DNA from: Helicobacteraceae bacterium
GTDB lineage: Bacteria > Campylobacterota > Campylobacteria > Campylobacterales > Sulfurimonadaceae
Reading direction: 5' to 3'
Length of the DNA: 39,002 nt
Assembly: GCA_021163845.1 (NCBI GenBank)
Contig: JAGGTH010000083.1
Location: 1 to 39,002, forward strand
Each line of letters begins with the position of its first letter. Positions within the stretch are counted from its first letter, which is position 1. Position numbers and translations under genes: made by a program. This document shows positions 28,517 to 38,480 of the stretch, one piece after another. The notes under the pieces were generated by a model, which was not told the origin of the DNA, made no database searches, and was given only the letters and a program-made list of their open reading frames with translations.

Positions 28517-29095
28517 TTACAGGAGATGACTCATCTGCTCTTTTTTTGTTTGGATGTAGTTCTCGTTGTATTGATTCACCGCGGTGATCGCTGGGATTCT
28601 CTCAACCACGCGCACTCCTAAGGACTCTACAAACTCTATTTTGGCTGGGTTATTTGTGATAAGGTTGATCTCTTTGAGTTCTAGGTCTTCAAAGATCTCT
28701 TTAACGATGGCATAATCTCTATCATCCTCACCAAATCCAAGCTCCACATTCGCCTCGATCGTATTGCGTCCTTGCTCTTGGAGTGCATACGCGTTGACTT
28801 TATTCAGCAGCCCAATATTACGCCCCTCTTGTCTATGATAAATGATCATTCCACCATAACTTGCGATAAATTTGATCGCAAGTTCAAGTTGGTTTTGACA
28901 ATCACATTTGAGGCTTCCAAAGGTGTCGCCCGTCAAACATTCTGAGTGGATACGCACATAAGGGATCTCTAAAGATTCAAAATCATCACTGAGTAAGACC
29001 ATATGTTCTTGGTTCTCTTGCTTATAGACCTTGATACGAAATTTTCCGTGCTTTGTTGGTAGATTGGCAAAAGTTGATTTTTCTATTTGTTGCAT
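28517..29095 (-). CDS. ribA: GTP cyclohydrolase II
   Basis: First step of riboflavin synthesis, opening GTP to a diaminopyrimidine. The 192 residues hold HSECLTGDTFGSLKCDCQNQLE, split as HSECLTGD and GSLKCDC (zinc Cys residues), YHRQEGRNIGLLNKVNAY and ITNNPAKIEFVESLG. It is a stand-alone RibA, not the RibBA fusion. The ATG overlaps the Fur-family gene by 13 nt, so the two are co-transcribed. The stop lies 2 nt from that of the convergent membrane protein gene. Confidence 0.95.
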   Translation of the reverse strand: MQQIEKSTFANLPTKHGKFRIKVYKQENQEHMVLLSDDFESLEIPYVRIHSECLTGDTFGSLKCDCQNQLELAIKFIASYGGMIIYHRQEGRNIGLLNKVNAYALQEQGRNTIEANVELGFGEDDRDYAIVKEIFEDLELKEINLITNNPAKIEFVESLGVRVVERIPAITAVNQYNENYIQTKKEQMSHLL

Positions 29096-29448
29096 TGTTT
29101 ACATATCCCTTTGAGTATCATATCTTCTACGATGTAACCATCAATCTTAAGATCTGCCAAGCCATCGATACACTCTATCTTATTGCAAATATTACAGATA
29201 AAATGGGCATGTGGCACGCTTTGAACTTCGTAGTATCTTTTTTTATCATTTGATTCAAAACTGCTTACGATAGACTCTGCTTCAAATTTTGAGATATTTC
29301 TATAAAAGGTCGCCTTATCCATACTGATCTTGTCTTTGACGTCTTCAAAGCTCAGTGGCTTTTTTGCATGAAAAAATATCTCTAAAAGCTCTTTTCTCGC
29401 AGATGTAAGCTTAAAGTTCTTCTCTTGTATAAGTTTTTCTATTTTCAT
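29083..29448 (-). CDS. Fur-family transcriptional regulator
   Basis: A 121-residue regulator with a winged helix (FKLTSARKELLEIFF, MDKATFYRNISKFEAE) and a metal domain with two CxxC pairs (HFICNICNK and ICKQCNK), the structural zinc site. The usual HHDH regulatory motif is reduced to PHAHF, so the sensed metal or signal (Fe, Zn, peroxide) cannot be assigned. It heads an operon with ribA and is divergent from the peptidase/ATP-grasp operon, which it may control. Confidence 0.9.
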   Translation of the reverse strand: MKIEKLIQEKNFKLTSARKELLEIFFHAKKPLSFEDVKDKISMDKATFYRNISKFEAESIVSSFESNDKKRYYEVQSVPHAHFICNICNKIECIDGLADLKIDGYIVEDMILKGICKQCNK

Positions 29449-29525
29449 AAGGGAATCTTATCACTTTGTATCTTTACACTATCTTAGTTTTTGCGACTTA
29501 GTTGCATTCATTCATGAAACACTTA

Positions 29526-29552
29526 TGAGAATCTTTTTAGATATACTCATGG
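29526..29552. promoter_or_regulatory. Imperfect dyad, candidate operator
   Basis: Between the Fur-family gene and the M20 gene lies ATGAG-A-ATCT, a T-run and AGAT-ATA-CTCAT, an imperfect inverted repeat. TATACT (29542-29547) inside it could be a -10 box for the operon. The remaining 100 bp of this 136-bp gap show nothing specific. Confidence 0.35.
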
Positions 29553-29584
29553 ATGTCACAAATTGAAGACAAAGAGAGAAGAAT

Positions 29585-30691
29585 ATGCAATATCTCAAAG
29601 ATTTACAAACACTCTGTGCAATCAACTCTTACACGCAAAATAAAAGTGGAGTCGATCAAGTTGCAAGACAGATGCAACAATGGCTCGAACCACTTGGTTT
29701 TGAGACAAAACTTTTCTCTAGAGAGATCATTGGTGATCATTATCTTTTTGAGAGCAAAAAAGTTCCAGGGGATACGATCCTTCTTTTAGGACACAACGAC
29801 ACTGTATTTCCCCTGGGTGCCTTTGATACATTTGATGAAGATGCCTACTGGGTCTATGGACCTGGAGTGTGTGATATGAAAGGGGGCAATATTGTCGCCC
29901 TTGAATCGCTCAAAGAACTCTTCAAAAAAAACCATAAGATACAAAATATAGACTTTTTACTCGTGAGTGATGAGGAGAGCGGAAGTGATGATAGCAAGGC
30001 GTTGACACTTTCCCTTGCCAAAAATTATGACTACTGCTTTGTTTTTGAAGCAGCAGGGGAAAACCTCGAGGTGGTCACAGGACGTAAAGGGGTGGGCACC
30101 TACACCATCTCCATCACAGGCAAAGCCGCCCATGCAGGCGTGCGCTACACAGAGGGGATCAACGCAAACCTCGAAGCGAGCTACAAACTCCAAGAGCTTA
30201 CAAAACTCACAAATCTCTCACTCGGAACCACGGTCAATGTCGGCAAAATCACAGGGGGAATTGGTGCAAATACCATCAGTCCAAAATGTGATCTTCTTTT
30301 AGAGATCCGCTATACAAGTGAGCAAGAGCAAGATAGACTTCTAGCCGCTCTTGAGAAGATCACGCAGACCTCTTATGTGGATGGAACAAGTGCTGTTTTG
30401 AGTGGACTTATCCAAAGGGATGTGATGGAGCCAAACAAAGCCCAAGAGCACTTTATCCAAACGCTAGAGAAGATCAGTGGACACAAACTTCCCACAGAAC
30501 AAAGAGGTGGCGTGAGCGATGCCAACCATGTCTCAAGCTGTGGCGTTGTGACTCTTGATGGCTTTGGTCCATTTGGAGATGGCGATCATACGACAAGCGA
30601 GCGAGCTCTTAAGAGTAGCTTTGTGCAACGTATCGATCTGATGCATAAGATATTTGATTTTCATCAATCAAATAACTGTCAATTTAATTAA
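29585..30691 (+). CDS. M20 peptidase, carboxypeptidase G2-like
   Basis: A 368-residue cytoplasmic metallopeptidase. The dizinc site of the CPG2 branch is complete: LLLGHNDTVFPLG (His, Asp), GVCDMKGGN (bridging Asp), SDEESGSDD (catalytic and ligand Glu), VFEAAGEN (Glu) and FGDGDHTTSE (His). A dimerisation domain sits between (TISITGKAAHAGV). CPG2 removes C-terminal glutamate from folates; this homologue has no signal peptide, so it acts inside the cell. It is the first gene of a five-gene operon with two ATP-grasp ligases and an M14 carboxypeptidase; the next gene starts 10 nt later. The substrate is not known. Confidence 0.88.
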   Translation: MQYLKDLQTLCAINSYTQNKSGVDQVARQMQQWLEPLGFETKLFSREIIGDHYLFESKKVPGDTILLLGHNDTVFPLGAFDTFDEDAYWVYGPGVCDMKGGNIVALESLKELFKKNHKIQNIDFLLVSDEESGSDDSKALTLSLAKNYDYCFVFEAAGENLEVVTGRKGVGTYTISITGKAAHAGVRYTEGINANLEASYKLQELTKLTNLSLGTTVNVGKITGGIGANTISPKCDLLLEIRYTSEQEQDRLLAALEKITQTSYVDGTSAVLSGLIQRDVMEPNKAQEHFIQTLEKISGHKLPTEQRGGVSDANHVSSCGVVTLDGFGPFGDGDHTTSERALKSSFVQRIDLMHKIFDFHQSNNCQFN

Positions 30692-30701
30692 GGGGTAAAA
30701 A

Positions 30702-31637
30702 ATGGGAAAAGACAGAACAGTTGGGATGTGGCTCTATCAAAATGGAGGTGGGGAGAAGATCCAAAAAAAACTCGTCAAAGAGTTGCGCGCAAGGGAGATC
30801 GAGACGATCACAGGTCTCAATCTTCGCAATGCGATCGCGCAAAATGGAAATATCATTTGCCAAAGTGATTGCAATAAGAAAAAAAATATCAAGGTCAACA
30901 AACTTGATCTCTTCTTCTCTTACAATGCGGGGGAGCAAACGCAATATCAAATGTATCTCTACAAAGCTCTAAACAAAGTGCTCCCAACAATCAATAATTT
31001 TGATGCTTTTGAACTCACTGAAGACAAGTTTCAAACCTCTTTTTTACTTAGAAATAAAGGGGTTGCAACACCTGATTATAAGCTTTGTCATAGAGATGAT
31101 GGGCATCAGCTCAGCAAGATCATGAAAAAATGGGATAAAATGGTGTATAAACCGACCGATGGCTGGGGAGGTGTCGGGCTCACCAAAATAGAGAACGAGG
31201 CAACTCTTGATATGCTCTTGCCTTTTTTAAATCAGATGGATCTAAGATTTTTTTATGTAGAAAAGTTTATAGATTATGACAATACAGACTTTCGTGTAGA
31301 TATTGTCGATGGAAAATTTGTCAGCTGCTATGGACGCAAAGCAGGTGGAAAAGATTGGCGTACCAACATCAGTAGTGGTGGAAGCGTCTTTTTAAGAGAG
31401 CCAAATGATGCGGTCGTAGACCTTGCGATCAAAGCGGCTCAAATAACAGGACTAGAGATCGCAGGTGTGGATATCATTTATGATAGAAAAAAAGAGGAAT
31501 ATGTGGTACTAGAGGTCAATGGGATCCCTGCATTTGCGACCCCAGATCAAGAAAAAGCGGGACTTAGCTTTAACGATAAAAAAATAGAACTCATTGCGAA
31601 CTTAATAGACAAACAAACAAAAAAAGAGGAAAAATAG
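30702..31637 (+). CDS. RimK-type ATP-grasp ligase (first)
   Basis: A 311-residue ATP-dependent carboxylate-amine ligase. An N-terminal pre-ATP-grasp domain (with FFSYNAGEQTQYQMYLYKAL) is followed by the ATP-grasp core: VYKPTDGWGGVGLTKIE (Gly-rich loop), FYVEKFI, DFRVDIVDGKFVSCYGR, a TNISSGGS loop and VLEVNGIPAF with both metal ligands Glu and Asn. It belongs to the RimK/LysX group, which add amino acids such as glutamate to a carboxyl or amino end. AGGGG precedes the ATG. It stops directly at the start of the second ATP-grasp gene. The acceptor is unknown. Confidence 0.85.
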   Translation: MGKDRTVGMWLYQNGGGEKIQKKLVKELRAREIETITGLNLRNAIAQNGNIICQSDCNKKKNIKVNKLDLFFSYNAGEQTQYQMYLYKALNKVLPTINNFDAFELTEDKFQTSFLLRNKGVATPDYKLCHRDDGHQLSKIMKKWDKMVYKPTDGWGGVGLTKIENEATLDMLLPFLNQMDLRFFYVEKFIDYDNTDFRVDIVDGKFVSCYGRKAGGKDWRTNISSGGSVFLREPNDAVVDLAIKAAQITGLEIAGVDIIYDRKKEEYVVLEVNGIPAFATPDQEKAGLSFNDKKIELIANLIDKQTKKEEK

Positions 31638-33041
31638 ATGGCAAAAAAAGAGAAACTTCCAACACTAGGACTTTTGTATATGGACTTTGTCCTTCGGTTC
31701 TTTGATAAATCAAATTTCAAAGGTTGGCCTGAAAAAATTGAGGTGGTGACCTATCACTGGGGCAATGATAAGAATAGACTCATCAAAGAGATCAAAGCAA
31801 AAAAGATAGATGTGCTCATAGGTAACATCCCAGCGACAGCGTATGAAACCTTTCGTGAGATCAGTAAAGCGCTTCCAAACGTGCAGTTTGTCCCCTCACT
31901 GGACACACAATTTTCAAACAAATCAAAAGAGAATGTAACCCGTTTTGCATGGAAATACAAGCTCCCTATCCCAAAAACTTCTATCTTCTACAATAGAGAA
32001 GAGGGAAAAAAGTTTCTTCAAAAAACAAAGTATCCAAAGATCATCAAAAAGTCTTACGGACCATCAAACTACGGGGGCTATTTTGTCCATAAAGTTGATA
32101 GTGCCAAAGAGGCGATGGAGCTTGTAGCGACAAAAAAATACCACCCTATCTATGTCCAAGACTTTATCCCAATGGAAGCGGATATCAGAGTGATGCTCAT
32201 CGGGCACAAACCTGTGTGTGCTTTTTGGAGAAGACCACCAGAAGGAGAATGGCTTACAAACACGAGCCAAGGTGGAAGTATGGACTATATGAATGTGCCT
32301 AAAAAGGTGCTCGATCTTGCAGTTCAAACATCCAAAGCTGCCAAAGCGGAATATTGGGCGTGTGACATTGCCTATGGAATCGATGGTAAGGTACGTATTT
32401 TAGAGTGTGCAACGGCGTTTGCAGCCTTTCCTTATATACGTGACTGGATCGGTCAATATATTATGTGGAAATTTGGAAACGGTCACTTTAGAAAGCCGCA
32501 TATTCCTGTATTTAACTGGGAAGAGCTCAGTAAGATCGACAAATCTTTACTTCGAACGATGCGCCATATCACTTTTGGAAAATATAGTCCAAGTTATGAT
32601 GGCGCATATTTTGGTAAAAAAAAGAAGAACCTTATCGATGGTGAGTATTATCTCCATGAGCTCGATAGCATCTATACTATGCATAATAGTATTGATACAA
32701 TGAGCGAAGAGTGGCCAAGTGAAAAGTGGAATTTTCAAGATAAATTTGCTCTTAAAAACCTCAAAACTATGGAAGTTGAAGTAAGCAGTGATGAGTCTCA
32801 AGAGACAATAAACGAGATTCCAAAGCTTTCAAAAAAAGAGCTCAAAGCGGTAGTAACCTCTGTTAAAGGGATAGGAAAAAAGAAATTCAACAAAATTTTA
32901 GATGAGTTTGGCGGCAAAAACGAACTTATTGAGATCCTCGAGAAGAACCCAACGATGCTCACCAAAATAAAAGGTATCAGTAAAAAAATAACAAACAAGC
33001 TTCAAGACGTATGGAAGCAATTTAAGAGAATGGAAGTATAA
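31638..33041 (+). CDS. ATP-grasp protein with helix-hairpin-helix tail (second)
   Basis: A 467-residue protein. Residues ~1-115 are a pre-ATP-grasp domain, ~115-285 an ATP-grasp core (IIKKSYGPSNYGGYFVHKV, YVQDFIPMEADIRVMLIGH, LTNTSQGGSMD, ILECATAF). The second metal ligand, normally Asn in ExN, is Ala258, so catalysis may be altered. About 285-395 is unassigned and contains an aromatic DGAYFGKKKK segment. The last ~65 residues hold two helix-hairpin-helix motifs (VKGIGKKKFNKILDEFG and IKGISKKITNKLQDVW), which usually bind DNA or RNA backbones. This combination is unfamiliar to me. It directly abuts the first ligase, so the two probably form a complex. Confidence 0.75.
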   Translation: MAKKEKLPTLGLLYMDFVLRFFDKSNFKGWPEKIEVVTYHWGNDKNRLIKEIKAKKIDVLIGNIPATAYETFREISKALPNVQFVPSLDTQFSNKSKENVTRFAWKYKLPIPKTSIFYNREEGKKFLQKTKYPKIIKKSYGPSNYGGYFVHKVDSAKEAMELVATKKYHPIYVQDFIPMEADIRVMLIGHKPVCAFWRRPPEGEWLTNTSQGGSMDYMNVPKKVLDLAVQTSKAAKAEYWACDIAYGIDGKVRILECATAFAAFPYIRDWIGQYIMWKFGNGHFRKPHIPVFNWEELSKIDKSLLRTMRHITFGKYSPSYDGAYFGKKKKNLIDGEYYLHELDSIYTMHNSIDTMSEEWPSEKWNFQDKFALKNLKTMEVEVSSDESQETINEIPKLSKKELKAVVTSVKGIGKKKFNKILDEFGGKNELIEILEKNPTMLTKIKGISKKITNKLQDVWKQFKRMEV

Positions 33042-33047
33042 GTACTC

Positions 33048-35621
33048 ATGAAGCAACAGTATAAATCGTATGAACAAACCTGTATATTTCTCAAAGAGTG
33101 TGTCAAAAAATATCCAAAGATCATCTCTATCGAATCGATCGGTAAAACTTGGGAACAAAGAGATATCATGCTTGCCACGATCTCTTTGAATGTTGAAAAT
33201 GCAGATCTTAAACCAGCACTTTTATATACAGGTACAATTCATGCCAGAGAGTGGATCGGAAATGAGCTCGCAGTCTCTTTTATCGACTCTATTTTAAACA
33301 ACTATGAAAGCAATCCAACGATACTTCAAACACTTACTCACAACACTCTTTATATCGTCCCTTGCCTCAACCCCGATGGATTTGAATACAGTAAAAGCCA
33401 TTTTTCGTTTTGGAGAAAAAATAGAAGAGATAATAAAGATGGTACTTTTGGAGTCGATCTCAATAGAAACTTTAGTATCGGATATCAAAAGAGCAAAGAT
33501 ACCGCCTCAAATATCTATAGTGGACCTGAACCTTTTAGTGAACCAGAGACCAGATCTATCAAGGAGTTTGTTGATGCCCATGACAATATCACAATAGCTC
33601 TAGATTATCACTCCCAAGGCAATGTATTTTTCCCTGCTCATAAGTTTAATCATGAAGCGGAACTTGAGGGTACTGACCTCAACACAATTTGTGCGAACAT
33701 GAACTATAAGATCCACAAAGTCACAGGCAGAGAGTATGGTATCCACAGAGGCAAACCCCCGACAAAACTTATCAGCGGAAGTGGTAGAGAGTACTACTAC
33801 AGCAAAGGGATCATCTCCGCTGTAGTGGAAGTTGGTACACAAAATATACCTGACTATATGCAAAATATGAGTGAGAGTATCCATGAGAACATCCCTGCAT
33901 TGTTATATGCTCTCAGTGAAGCACAAAACTACTCCAAAAATGCTCCTGCGCGAGCTAATAATTTTATTGTTAAGAGCAAAACTTCAGCAGAGGTGACATT
34001 TACCTGGGAATATGAAGATACAAGAAACATCTATTTTGAGATCTACAGAAATACTGAAAATAAAAAAGCTTACAATCACTCTTCACTTGTGGGAGTGACC
34101 ACAAAAACGACGTTTACCGATATTGAGCTTAGTAGTAGTAAGAACTATTACTACTCTATTCGCGCGATACATAGTATCACAGGTATCAAATCACCTTTTG
34201 CTCCACAATTAAGAGTTCAAACAGAACTTGAAAACAGTGAGTTTTTTCGTACCATATTTCCTGCACCAACCGCAATAGGTTACACAGCAGAAAAAACGCT
34301 CGAACAAAACAGATCTCACTTTGGAACCAATTCGCTTTTCATTGGAGTGAGTAAAAACAGAGGTATTAGCTATGGTGTAATGGATTTTACCTTAGAATCG
34401 CTTCCAAAAGATGCGATCATAAAAGAAGCAAAACTCTCCTTGTATCCCCTCAACAGAGTCAATGCAAAGATAGAAAAATATGGGGAGTGGTCGATCTCTT
34501 TTGTGGACAAAGAGAGTGTAGCCGATATTATGGATTATGAACAGATAGCAAAGTGCGAGCTTTTACAAACTCTTGGTGCTACTATCCCATCGCAAAAGCT
34601 CACCCAAGGGATCTGGTCTCATTGGCAATTTAATGATTATGAAAAAGGTCTCCTCCAATCACAACTTCGAGAACATAACTCTGTTCTTTTTAGAATCTCT
34701 GGACCAACAGTTCTACCATTAGGAAGAGATTCTCAGATGATGATGTTTGATCTAGGATATGGCAAGTTTGGAGGTGGGATCCATTATCGACCGAACCTCC
34801 ATGTCAAATATACTGTTCCCGAGCAGACCCTAGAGATACCAGCGAAAAATCTCGCAAGCGTTTATAAAGATAAAATTATCCAAGACAAGCTTTCTTGTGG
34901 TTTTGATGCAGAGAACAATAAAGTCTATGGATACATGGAGTTTAACCTTGATTCTTTACCAGATTTTAAAAAGACCGTAATGACAGAAGCGTATATCAAT
35001 ATCAAAAATACAACAAGGACAAAGTCAAAGCAAGATATCCGTTACAATGTAGAGTTTGTAGATGTTAACGAACTTAACCATGCGGATATAAAAGAGAGGG
35101 AAAGAATAGAGTTTATTGGTTATGAAGTGAGTCATGGGGATCTTCAAGAACAAAAAAAACACTATTTTATCTTTGATAGTTTTTCAAGACTCTCTCTTGA
35201 GCAACGGCATCAAAATAAAACGCAGACAAAATTTATTATCAAGCCAACCTCTTCTATTACAAAAAATCATATTGTCGAATGGGATAAAGATGCTGTTTTA
35301 ACTATTAAATACATCCAAAGAAGAAGAGACTCACTCCCTCAACCTACAAACCTGAAATTAATTCAAGAAAATGGGAAGATAAAACTCAGCTGGGAAAATC
35401 CAAAAGATGAAGACTTTGTAGGGGTTTTCGTTGTACGCAATAGGTTTCATCCCCCATCAAATCCTTATGATGGAGATAAACTCTACGCAGGAAAAGACAA
35501 CTACACCTTTGATGATTTTGGCTCCCCTAAGATCTCAAAATACTTTGGAGTCTTTAGTTATGATGATGTGCCAAATTATAGCGAGGCGCTTGTGGCTTTT
35601 TATGAGGGCACACCCGAGTAG
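33048..35621 (+). CDS. M14 zinc carboxypeptidase with Fn3 and DNRLRE-like domains
   Basis: An 857-residue protein starting directly with an M14 catalytic domain (1-~295): zinc ligands His65 and Glu68 in TIHAREW and His188 in LDYHSQG, LNPDGFEYS, substrate residues Asn139-Arg140 in DLNRNF and catalytic Glu261 in VVEVGT. Arg247 (GSGREYYY) aligns with the pocket residue of carboxypeptidases A/B (Ile/Asp255), suggesting acidic C-terminal residues are preferred. Then come an Fn3-like domain (~300-385), two DNRLRE/CBM96-like beta domains (~400-580 and ~590-750) and a second Fn3-like domain (~755-857). No signal peptide is present, unusual with such extracellular-type domains. It follows the ATP-grasp pair by 6 nt. 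Confidence 0.82.
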   Translation: MKQQYKSYEQTCIFLKECVKKYPKIISIESIGKTWEQRDIMLATISLNVENADLKPALLYTGTIHAREWIGNELAVSFIDSILNNYESNPTILQTLTHNTLYIVPCLNPDGFEYSKSHFSFWRKNRRDNKDGTFGVDLNRNFSIGYQKSKDTASNIYSGPEPFSEPETRSIKEFVDAHDNITIALDYHSQGNVFFPAHKFNHEAELEGTDLNTICANMNYKIHKVTGREYGIHRGKPPTKLISGSGREYYYSKGIISAVVEVGTQNIPDYMQNMSESIHENIPALLYALSEAQNYSKNAPARANNFIVKSKTSAEVTFTWEYEDTRNIYFEIYRNTENKKAYNHSSLVGVTTKTTFTDIELSSSKNYYYSIRAIHSITGIKSPFAPQLRVQTELENSEFFRTIFPAPTAIGYTAEKTLEQNRSHFGTNSLFIGVSKNRGISYGVMDFTLESLPKDAIIKEAKLSLYPLNRVNAKIEKYGEWSISFVDKESVADIMDYEQIAKCELLQTLGATIPSQKLTQGIWSHWQFNDYEKGLLQSQLREHNSVLFRISGPTVLPLGRDSQMMMFDLGYGKFGGGIHYRPNLHVKYTVPEQTLEIPAKNLASVYKDKIIQDKLSCGFDAENNKVYGYMEFNLDSLPDFKKTVMTEAYINIKNTTRTKSKQDIRYNVEFVDVNELNHADIKERERIEFIGYEVSHGDLQEQKKHYFIFDSFSRLSLEQRHQNKTQTKFIIKPTSSITKNHIVEWDKDAVLTIKYIQRRRDSLPQPTNLKLIQENGKIKLSWENPKDEDFVGVFVVRNRFHPPSNPYDGDKLYAGKDNYTFDDFGSPKISKYFGVFSYDDVPNYSEALVAFYEGTPE

Positions 35622-35702
35622 TGCTACTGTGATGATAAAAGCTTGGCATTAGACTCTTTGCTATATAATCAAGCCAAAATCTCAGCCATCAGGAGCGCAT
35701 AC

Positions 35703-37688
35703 TTGCAAGAAGAATTTCAACAACTCGTACAATCTCTTGACAATGATGATCTCTTTGTCGTCGAAAAACTGGCACTCGTTATCGACTTTATACGACCTTT
35801 GGATGTAGGGGAACTTTCAAATACACTCACAGCCATGGAACTTGTCAAGGACTTTTTTCATACCAAAGAACACGTGGCTGTCGCTATCTCTGATGCGATC
35901 AATCTTTGGCTCATAGATTCAAAGATCTCTACGAACATTACAAGTCTTGGGATTTTATCGCGTGATGGTTTTCACCATGAGATCAGCGAGCGTTTTTATA
36001 ATAAGTTTCTCCCATCAGCACCCAAAAAAGGGGATTTCAAATATCTTTTTGCAACGCTTTTTTCCAAAAAAGATGACCATATTTGGGTCTGTGCGATCGA
36101 AAATGAAAAATGGATCGATTTTTTCTCTGCGATCCTTTGTAGCCAAACACATACCGATGAAGTAAAAGATTATCTCTTTAGCGAGTTTTTGTATGCTATT
36201 GAGATTCTCTCGATCTGGATCGCTTCTGAGGAGTTTGACGATAATTTTATCCGTCTTGATAGCTCCCTTTTAGAGCGTGACTCTGCTTTTATTGCCCTCA
36301 AGCGCGATATTGGGTCTTTTATACGCAGAGTGCAGTCAAAACAAATAGATATAGAGTCTGCCGAACTTGACTTTCAACATCTTCAAGTGATCCTAGCGCA
36401 ATGCGACGATCAGGTCAGCTCTTTGAAAAAGAGATCGATCAACAAAGGGATATCAGTTGATCTCACGTATGAACTCGAACGCCTCACACAGATTATCCAA
36501 AGACTCAGAGATATTTTAGAACTTATCAAAAAATTTGACACGCCTGAATCTTACCCTCCTCTTATCGAGCTTTTCAAAGAGGCTGTAAGAAAAAACGCCA
36601 CGCGAAACTCACTCTATGAGATCTATCAGCAAAATATCAAGATACTCGCAAAAAGTGTCACCAATAATGCAAGTGAACACGGCGATCACTACATCACCGA
36701 AAATGTAAAGCAGTATCTCAAGATGTTTCTCACGGCAAGTGGAGCTGGGATCATTATCGCTTTTATGGCACTGTTTAAGATCAAACTTGTACAGATGGGG
36801 TTTTCAGAGGGAGTGCAAACACTCTTGGCAAGTCTCAACTATGGTCTTGGATTTGTACTTATCCATCTCTTTGGCTTTACCGTCGCCACCAAACAACCCG
36901 CGATGACCGCCTCAACCTTTGCCAAAGCGGTAGAAAAAGGGGATCAAAACCGTGCCAACCAAAAAAAGCTCGTTGAGCTTATCATACAAGTAAGTCGCTC
37001 ACAGTTTGCAGCGGTACTTGGTAATGTCACACTCGCTCTTTTGGTCGCTTTTGGGATCGCTTTTTATTTGTTACACAAGGGGGAGACAATCCTCTCAGAA
37101 ACTGAGACACTCTATTATCTCAAAGGGCTTGAGCCCTACCCTGCACTTTTGTATGCAGCTATTGCTGGGGTTTGGCTCTTTTGTTCGGGGCTGATTGCGG
37201 GCTACTTTGATAACCGTGCCAATCTGCTAGACCTCAAAGGGCGCTATTTTCACCACCCTCTACTCAAAAAAATACTAGGAAACGAAAAAAGAGAAAAGCT
37301 AGCCAACTACATCCACGAACACCACGGAGCGATCGCAGGAAACTTCTTTTTTGGTGTGCTTTTGGGGATCACCCCTTTTATTGGGTCACTCTTAAATCTC
37401 CCACTCGATATCAGACACGTTGCCTTCTCCACAGCAAACCTCGGCTTTAGCGCATCACACATCGATCTGGGTCTGTATGAATTTATACTCTCGCTCATTT
37501 TCGTACTGCTCATCGGATTTGTCAATCTCACCGTGAGCTTTATCCTCGCGCTCAAAGTCTCACTCATGTCACGCGATGCCTATTTTGGAAGTCTTTTCTC
37601 ATTCTTAAAGCTCTTGCTTCTAGAAGCACTCAAACGCCCCCATCATCTCTTTTTCCCACCGACAGAGAAAACAGAAGAGAAACACTAA
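35703..37688 (+). CDS. Gcr-type membrane protein ("site-specific recombinase" family)
   Basis: A ~661-residue protein matching the PF10136 family named after Neisseria Gcr. The first ~350 residues are soluble and helical (including ALVIDFIRPLD and QDLERLTQI-like coiled stretches); the rest has about six membrane helices. The recombinase label is historical; no tyrosine or serine recombinase motif is visible, so a membrane role is more likely. A TTG at 35703 with AGGAG 7 nt upstream is preferred over a TTG at 35643 that has no ribosome site. It ends the M20/ATP-grasp/M14 operon; its link to that system is unknown. Confidence 0.75.
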   Translation: MQEEFQQLVQSLDNDDLFVVEKLALVIDFIRPLDVGELSNTLTAMELVKDFFHTKEHVAVAISDAINLWLIDSKISTNITSLGILSRDGFHHEISERFYNKFLPSAPKKGDFKYLFATLFSKKDDHIWVCAIENEKWIDFFSAILCSQTHTDEVKDYLFSEFLYAIEILSIWIASEEFDDNFIRLDSSLLERDSAFIALKRDIGSFIRRVQSKQIDIESAELDFQHLQVILAQCDDQVSSLKKRSINKGISVDLTYELERLTQIIQRLRDILELIKKFDTPESYPPLIELFKEAVRKNATRNSLYEIYQQNIKILAKSVTNNASEHGDHYITENVKQYLKMFLTASGAGIIIAFMALFKIKLVQMGFSEGVQTLLASLNYGLGFVLIHLFGFTVATKQPAMTASTFAKAVEKGDQNRANQKKLVELIIQVSRSQFAAVLGNVTLALLVAFGIAFYLLHKGETILSETETLYYLKGLEPYPALLYAAIAGVWLFCSGLIAGYFDNRANLLDLKGRYFHHPLLKKILGNEKREKLANYIHEHHGAIAGNFFFGVLLGITPFIGSLLNLPLDIRHVAFSTANLGFSASHIDLGLYEFILSLIFVLLIGFVNLTVSFILALKVSLMSRDAYFGSLFSFLKLLLLEALKRPHHLFFPPTEKTEEKH

Positions 37689-37854: not shown

Positions 37855-38211
37855 TTATTGGCTACTCTGTTTTGTTAGCATATTCCCTCTTAATAGCTTT
37901 TGCAATAACAACTCTTCTACATTTTGTCTTGAATCAAAAATAGCCATTATAAAAACAGTGTCATTTTCAATTTTATACATAATTCTGTAAGGTTGTGCGA
38001 TCAGTTCTCTATAAATAGTTATACCTTCTTTTTGAAGTTCAGGGACTACTCTACCTCTTAAAGGAAAAAAGTTGCTAGATTGTGCTTTTTCTTTTATTTG
38101 TCCATAAGCTTTTCTTGCAGCACTTAAACTATCTTTTTTGATATAATCAACAATATTTAAAAGGTCTTCTTTTGCATTTGAAGTCCATTTAACTTTATAA
38201 GTTTTACTCAT
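37855..38211 (-). CDS. ParE/RelE-type toxin
   Basis: A 118-residue protein of the RelE/ParE fold: N-terminal YKVKWTSNAKEDLLNIVDYI, central FPLRGRVVPEL and the C-terminal YRELIAQPYRIMYKI and VFIMAIFDSRQN strands. The last motif is typical of ParE-like toxins, which target gyrase; RelE-type mRNA cleavage cannot be excluded. It starts in a 4-nt overlap (ATGA) with its antitoxin. The DNA here is noticeably AT-richer than the preceding operon. Confidence 0.9.
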   Translation of the reverse strand: MSKTYKVKWTSNAKEDLLNIVDYIKKDSLSAARKAYGQIKEKAQSSNFFPLRGRVVPELQKEGITIYRELIAQPYRIMYKIENDTVFIMAIFDSRQNVEELLLQKLLRGNMLTKQSSQ

Positions 38212-38480
38212 TTGCCAAGGAGTTCTTCAACAGAGTTAAAAACATCTTCTTCAGTATGAATATTTCCGCTTCTGATATCTTCTTCTGCAAATGAAAGAAG
38301 CTTCATTATAGCAAGAGCATTTTTCATATCTTCATAACTCTTTGGATCTTGTATAACAGCTTTAGCTTCACCATTTTGTGTGATAATCATAGGTCTATGA
38401 GTTTCATTGATATATTTTAGAACATCAGCTGCTCTACTTTTCAGGTAGGTAACAGGCTTTATATCATTTACAATTTGCAT
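38208..38480 (-). CDS. Phd/YefM-type antitoxin
   Basis: A 90-residue antitoxin. The N-terminal half shows the Phd/YefM DNA-binding fold (VTYLKSRAADVLKYI, PMIITQNGEAKAVIQDP, SYEDM) and the acidic C terminus (EEDIRSGNIHTEEDVFNSVEEL, read as EDIRSGNIHTEED) is the part that should wrap the toxin. A strong AAGGAG precedes the ATG. It is first in the TA operon and is probably autoregulated through the dyad upstream. Confidence 0.92.
   Translation of the reverse strand: MQIVNDIKPVTYLKSRAADVLKYINETHRPMIITQNGEAKAVIQDPKSYEDMKNALAIMKLLSFAEEDIRSGNIHTEEDVFNSVEELLGK

Follow-up and report, generated by a model that had tools for sequence, protein, structure and literature searches.

A recurrent four-gene module of two ATP-grasp ligases and two zinc carboxypeptidases, a candidate system for reversible amino-acid ligation in bacteria

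INTRODUCTION

In the amino-group-carrier pathway built on the carrier protein LysW, an M20 enzyme (LysK) is paired with the ATP-grasp ligase LysX, and in the N-acetylglutaminylglutamine amide (NAGGN) system pairs of ATP-grasp enzymes and peptidases make and recycle osmolytes. In eukaryotes, the TTLL/CCP tubulin cycle combines an ATP-dependent ligase with an M14 carboxypeptidase, both acting on acidic tails. In the RimABK system of Pseudomonas, the ribosomal protein S6 is polyglutamylated by RimK, and the retropepsin-like RimB takes the tail off (PMC11957791). Here we analyze four adjacent genes, encoding an M20 peptidase, two ATP-grasp ligases (GR1 and GR2), and an M14 carboxypeptidase, on contig JAGGTH010000083.1 of a Helicobacteraceae bacterium (assembly GCA_021163845.1); positions 1 to 39,002 of this contig, the whole stretch of DNA analyzed, are called the window. 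The four genes are a true module, since they recur together in otherwise unrelated neighborhoods across distant groups, and we put at about even the chance that it is a mobile, self-contained cytosolic system for reversible amino-acid ligation.

In outline the module resembles RimABK or the TTLL/CCP cycle, but it lacks what defines a RimABK or a LysW system. Like RimABK, it would combine a co-encoded, cytosolic RimK-type ligase with a protease devoted to the modification that the ligase makes; unlike RimABK, it has two ligases and two zinc exopeptidases, and no retropepsin RimB or RimA partner. With the LysW/LysX(ArgX)/LysK pathway it shares a LysX-type ligase paired with an M20 hydrolase, LysX and ArgX being the nearest folds to GR2, but it has no LysW, has an extra M14 enzyme and a second ligase, and its M20 protein is nearest to carboxypeptidase G2 (CPG2). 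The parts of the module are members of known families, and their combination, this gene set with a ligase bearing a helix-hairpin-helix (HhH) domain, was not found in the literature searched, and an earlier mention elsewhere is possible; nor did we find a function assigned to the module. If the reading as reversible amino-acid tailing is true, the module would join RimABK among the rare bacterial cases of a ligase with erasers of its own, and we know of no earlier bacterial ligase-eraser case with metallocarboxypeptidases.

RESULTS

The four genes recur together in distant lineages

We scanned GTDB genome contigs with GR2, which gave 80 loci, and mapped the window proteins on these and on 40 further stretches. 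As proposed in the first-pass annotation of this DNA, a model's reading of the sequence, we looked for conserved co-occurrence, and the four enzymes were indeed together far more often than chance would give: M20, GR1, GR2, and M14 recur in one order, M20 being either in line or divergent, in Campylobacterota, in Gammaproteobacteria (Alteromonas, Colwellia, Psychrosphaera, Pseudoalteromonas, Thiomicrorhabdus, and also Photobacterium), and in one metagenome-assembled genome of Desulfuromonadales. The named genera are mainly marine. In plasmid and phage collections, the module was carried only by Photobacterium sp. DA100, on a 2.1-Mb replicon and with M20 divergent. The flanking genes otherwise vary from lineage to lineage. 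No additional gene or precursor peptide was conserved across lineages in the mapped loci, nor did the module include a conserved carrier protein, transporter, or further biosynthetic gene.

Co-occurrence was counted in 397 high-quality Campylobacterota genomes, filtered by completeness and contamination. GR1 was detected in 52, GR2 in 52, and M14 in 54 of these, and 50 of the 56 genomes with any of the three had them all (Fisher p ~1e-59 for each pair, phylogeny being ignored). All GR1 matches were better than 1e-142 and none fell between 1e-142 and 1e-30; the matches are therefore orthologues and not generic family members. Among 60 relatives, M20 and GR1 occupied identical sets of genomes (23 and 23), and all four genes were present in 20 of the 25 genomes that had any. 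Presence is patchy inside a single genus, and one genome (G088) retains a leftover of GR2 alone, with stops. The module is sharply defined: sister species have it complete or lack it, and it has spread across phyla of marine bacteria. Its presence and absence inside one genus offers ready strain pairs for target finding.

The distance matrices of the four proteins were correlated over 51 complete sets (Mantel r 0.42 to 0.83, the highest value being that of GR2 and M14). The window M14 matched copies from other families (L031, L034, L142, and G037) at 65-81%, compared to 46-48% for in-cluster copies of its own genus, and GR2 was likewise closer to the copies of other families than to those in the clusters of congeners. 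Because of these affinities, the data suggest that the four-gene set moved horizontally as a unit.

Some Campylobacterota lineages place the genes beside translation genes. The best GR2 copy of Sulfurimonas stands apart from the cluster, directly downstream of efp, the elongation factor P gene, at a distance of a few tens of nucleotides (loci L042, L043, L061, L083, and others), and M20-GR1-M14 are kept together elsewhere in the genome (G011), after rpsP-khpA-rimM-trmD-rplS. One genome (G030) has two GR2 copies, one detached and one in-cluster. The module is near rpsF-ssb-rpsR in four Sulfurovum-type loci and on another contig. Arcobacter-type loci (L031, L033, L034, L140, and others) have argG upstream of M20 and a gamma-carbonic-anhydrase-like hexapeptide gene after M14 (L031:10338-10862), separated by 0-4 nucleotides in some; these two genes are a lineage-specific extension of the operon. 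The argG, gamma-carbonic-anhydrase-like, efp, and L19 neighbors were each lineage specific and were rejected as conserved module genes.

M14 is predicted to remove acidic C-terminal residues in the cytosol

The M14 protein (Peptidase_M14, 1.1e-56) has kept all checked catalytic residues of carboxypeptidase A (CPA), and these are invariant: the zinc ligands H65, E68, and H188, the base E261, R126, and N139-R140. It matches the CPA-type signature, with equivalents of HxxE...H, Arg127, Asn144-Arg145, and Glu270 all present. M14 is predicted to be cytosolic because it has no signal or propeptide and begins directly with the mature enzyme fold. It is nearest to CPA, CPB, and CPT (E 1e-39; Z ~29), and CCP entries were not among the structural matches listed for it. 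The ligases, too, are nearest to LysX, ArgX, and RimK, so that the parallel with TTLL and CCP enzymes drawn in the first-pass annotation is not supported at the family level and is an analogy of working only.

In sequence alignment, Arg247 falls at position 255 of CPA, in the S1′ pocket, and it is invariant in 27 of 27 relatives; the AlphaFold loop 236-252 has a predicted local distance difference test (pLDDT) score below 50, so that the assignment is one of sequence alignment. Because of this position and invariance, M14 is predicted to prefer acidic C-terminal residues, as had been proposed for Arg247 before; in carboxypeptidase O, the specificity for acidic C-terminal residues is determined by Arg255 (PMC9925722). 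M14 resembles that enzyme in the Arg at position 255, the predicted acidic preference, and the lack of a pro-domain, but carboxypeptidase O is an extracellular animal enzyme without C-terminal beta domains or partner ligases.

M20 keeps the CPG2 core but not Lys208

The nearest families of the M20 protein are PRK07338 and PRK06133, and the nearest Protein Data Bank entry is CPG2, which belongs to the same M20 subgroup. The zinc and catalytic residues (H70, D97, E130, E131, E155, and H335) are kept, as are most of the substrate-site residues: N229, R242, and R278, which correspond to N275, R288, and R324 of CPG2, and H183. The position of CPG2 Lys208, however, is taken by E162 (codon 30068-30070), and is mostly Glu in relatives. 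The CPG2-like specificity for glutamate that had been suggested for M20 is therefore not supported, although the core of the site is intact. CPG2 is an exported enzyme, whereas the module M20 has no signal peptide.

GR1 and GR2 are related to RimK and LysX but differ at key positions

GR1 matches PF08443 (1.6e-17), the RimK family (2.5e-38), and, as its best NCBIfam match, MptN (1.6e-40). It aligns with RimK, ArgX, and LysX throughout the active-site region, and its Mg site (D257/E271/N273) is intact. In Pseudomonas RimK, residues R64, S68, R189, and N262 hold the glutamate chain (PMC10092738). GR1 keeps two of these four contacts, R189 and N262, as R198 and N273, but has Tyr74 (codon 30921-30923) and Glu78 (codon 30933-30935) in place of R64 and S68. 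To judge from these residues, GR1 would use an amino acid in the manner of RimK and LysX, but on a different acceptor; the polyglutamate acceptor of RimK, suggested for it earlier, is not supported in view of these replacements.

GR2 consists of a RimK-type ATP-grasp ligase and an HHH_5 domain. Its AlphaFold model (mean pLDDT 78.7) gave nearly tied matches to ArgX (Z 21.4, root mean square deviation 3.0, 262 residues), LysX (Z 21.0), and RimK (Z ~20), with ~18% identity to the best of them, LysX and ArgX. Active-site features of LysX and RimK are preserved in both ligases. Where GR1 has the ExN Mg motif E271-V-N273, GR2 has E256-C-A258 (hhalign pairs E256 with E271); A258 also falls at the position of RimK N262 and is invariant in all 36 aligned relatives, which have lost the Asn. 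In related ATP-grasp enzymes this Asn binds Mg, and because it is invariantly lost, GR2 is possibly unusual in mechanism or regulatory. This Asn is the single exception among the checked catalytic residues of the enzymes, which are otherwise invariant in relatives; the open reading frames (ORFs) are therefore real genes.

Most GR2 proteins carry an HhH tail, of the HHH_5 (27 of 36), ComEA-like HHH_3, or S13-like type. The domain evolves fast and is joined to the ligase by an acidic linker, and in some GR2s it is degenerate and lacks the GIG hairpin. The tail of the window GR2 is basic (isoelectric point [pI], 10.1). HhH domains commonly bind nucleic acid, and the GR2 tail may do the same.

Proposed mechanism and its alternatives

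The direct observations are the gene order, its conservation, the co-occurrence, the preserved catalytic residues of GR1, M20, and M14, and the alignment position of Arg247. In the mechanism that we propose, GR1 would activate a carboxylate with ATP and join one amino acid to it, and GR2 would add a further, probably acidic, residue onto the same molecule. M14 would take off C-terminal acidic residues by means of Arg247 and the CPG2-like M20 would take off the other residue, so that the modification could be set and reset. We infer that all four enzymes act on one product and that the added residues are acidic. GR2 and M14 would form one writer and eraser pair, because they show the strongest covariation and occur together without GR1 in genome G263; GR1 and M20 would form the other, because their genome distribution is identical. 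Of the earlier proposal that the operon builds and trims a (poly)glutamate-like tail inside the cell, the general part, reversible amino-acid ligation in the cytoplasm, is supported; the polyglutamate detail is not, given the residues of GR1 and M20, the CPA/CPT-like M14, and the S6 and LysW data below.

Three features tip the balance slightly from a small peptide toward a macromolecular acceptor near nucleic acid or the ribosome: the HhH tail of GR2, the extensive accessory region of M14, and the translation-protein neighbors in some lineages. A more specific form of the proposal is a bacterial writer and eraser of amino-acid tails at protein C termini, in which the HhH domain would hold one ligase to nucleic acid (DNA or the ribosome), two zinc carboxypeptidases would reset the tail, and the cassette, spread between phyla, would be an independent counterpart of TTLL/CCP; we consider it unlikely in this full form. 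Several points weigh against reversible ligation by the whole set. The co-occurrence counts are phylogenetically nonindependent, and there are partial sets, with GR2 and M14 but no GR1 (G263), GR1 and M14 but no GR2 (G419), or M14 only (G299). GR2, to judge from its Mg site, could be weak or regulatory. The translation-gene neighbors are lineage specific and could be incidental, the Arcobacter-type loci having argG and the gamma-carbonic-anhydrase-like gene instead. Finally, an acceptor was sought through S6 tails, LysW, and conserved extra genes or precursors, and none was found.

It is a genuine if lesser possibility that the ligases make a short peptide-like metabolite, such as an osmolyte, a metal ligand, or a cofactor tail, which the peptidases recycle. 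MptN, the best NCBIfam match of GR1, is a cofactor glutamate ligase, NAGGN is a precedent for pairs of ATP-grasp enzymes and peptidases, and the mainly marine carriers and the lack of a conserved carrier protein or precursor peptide would suit such a product. However, the basic HhH domain that most GR2s retain and the ~560-residue accessory part of M14 are ill-suited to a small molecule, and the module lacks a conserved transporter or additional biosynthetic gene. Far less probable is an amino-group-carrier pathway, in which GR1 and GR2 would charge a LysW-like carrier with an amino acid and M20, like LysK, would free the product. The nearest folds of GR2 (Z ~21), the pairing of M20 enzymes with LysX, and argG upstream in Arcobacter-type loci are consistent with it, but M14 has no role in such a pathway, and in genome G000 and 25 other module-bearing genomes no LysW match exceeded the family cutoff, although the positive controls were found. 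A LysW carrier was therefore rejected.

We consider it more doubtful still that the module controls S6 by C-terminal glutamylation, as RimABK does, with the metallopeptidases replacing RimB. Both ligases are RimK related, and the loci near rpsF-ssb-rpsR would fit, but the S6 C termini do not track with the module: whether or not a genome of the window's genus has the module, its S6 ends in E, and in other module-bearing genomes S6 ends in A, K, or E, with no conserved acidic end. The loss of the R64/S68 acceptor residues in GR1 also argues against this reading. Least credible of all is a chance cluster for peptide scavenging, of two carboxypeptidases and two unrelated ligases; genes of both kinds, for peptidases and for ATP-grasp enzymes, are common, but the specific orthologous families, their joint presence and absence, and the adjacency kept in distant classes contradict it.

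Locus layout and neighboring genes

ORF calls and domain searches bore out the gene order, families, strand, and first three gaps given in the first-pass annotation; across the five plus-strand ORFs from M20 to the PF10136 gene, the gaps are 10, 0, 6, and 21 nucleotides (Table 1). The fifth gene, for a Gcr-like 'site-specific recombinase' membrane protein (PF10136, 6.7e-195), had been counted in the set, but no copy was found in any mapped related module locus (tblastn at 1e-8). Few relatives have the gene (it was found in 2 of 41 genomes), and one of these two, the congener G012, has no module. It was therefore rejected as a module member.

Table 1. Features of the module and its surroundings in the window (aa, amino acids)
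Feature	Positions	Strand	Remarks
M20 peptidase, CPG2-like	29585-30691	+	368 aa
GR1, RimK/LysX-type ATP-grasp ligase	30702-31637	+	311 aa
GR2, LysX/ArgX-like ATP-grasp ligase with C-terminal HhH	31638-33041	+	467 aa, pI 9.5
HhH domain of GR2	32853-33002	+	residues 406-455, HHH_5, canonical GIG hairpin
M14 metallocarboxypeptidase	33048-35621	+	857 aa
Arg247 codon of M14	33786-33788	+	position 255 of bovine CPA1, S1′ pocket, by sequence alignment
C-terminal part of M14 protein	33939-35618	+	~560 aa, fn3-like and beta-sandwich (DNRLRE-like) domains
PF10136 (Gcr/'SpecificRecomb') membrane protein	35643-37688	+	681 aa, TTG start; neighbor outside the module
Fur-family regulator gene	29083-29448	-	divergent from the module
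Intergenic region between Fur-family gene and M20	29449-29584		136 nucleotides
ParE-type toxin and Phd/YefM antitoxin pair	37855-38480	-	just downstream of the PF10136 gene

None of the five proteins matched a PADLOC model of known anti-phage defense, and sigma-70 promoter and terminator scans at the locus gave results near chance. The Fur-family gene is not adjacent to the module in related loci, and regulation of the module by this divergent regulator is possible in this genome only. We note that a toxin-antitoxin pair lies on the opposite strand beyond the PF10136 gene.

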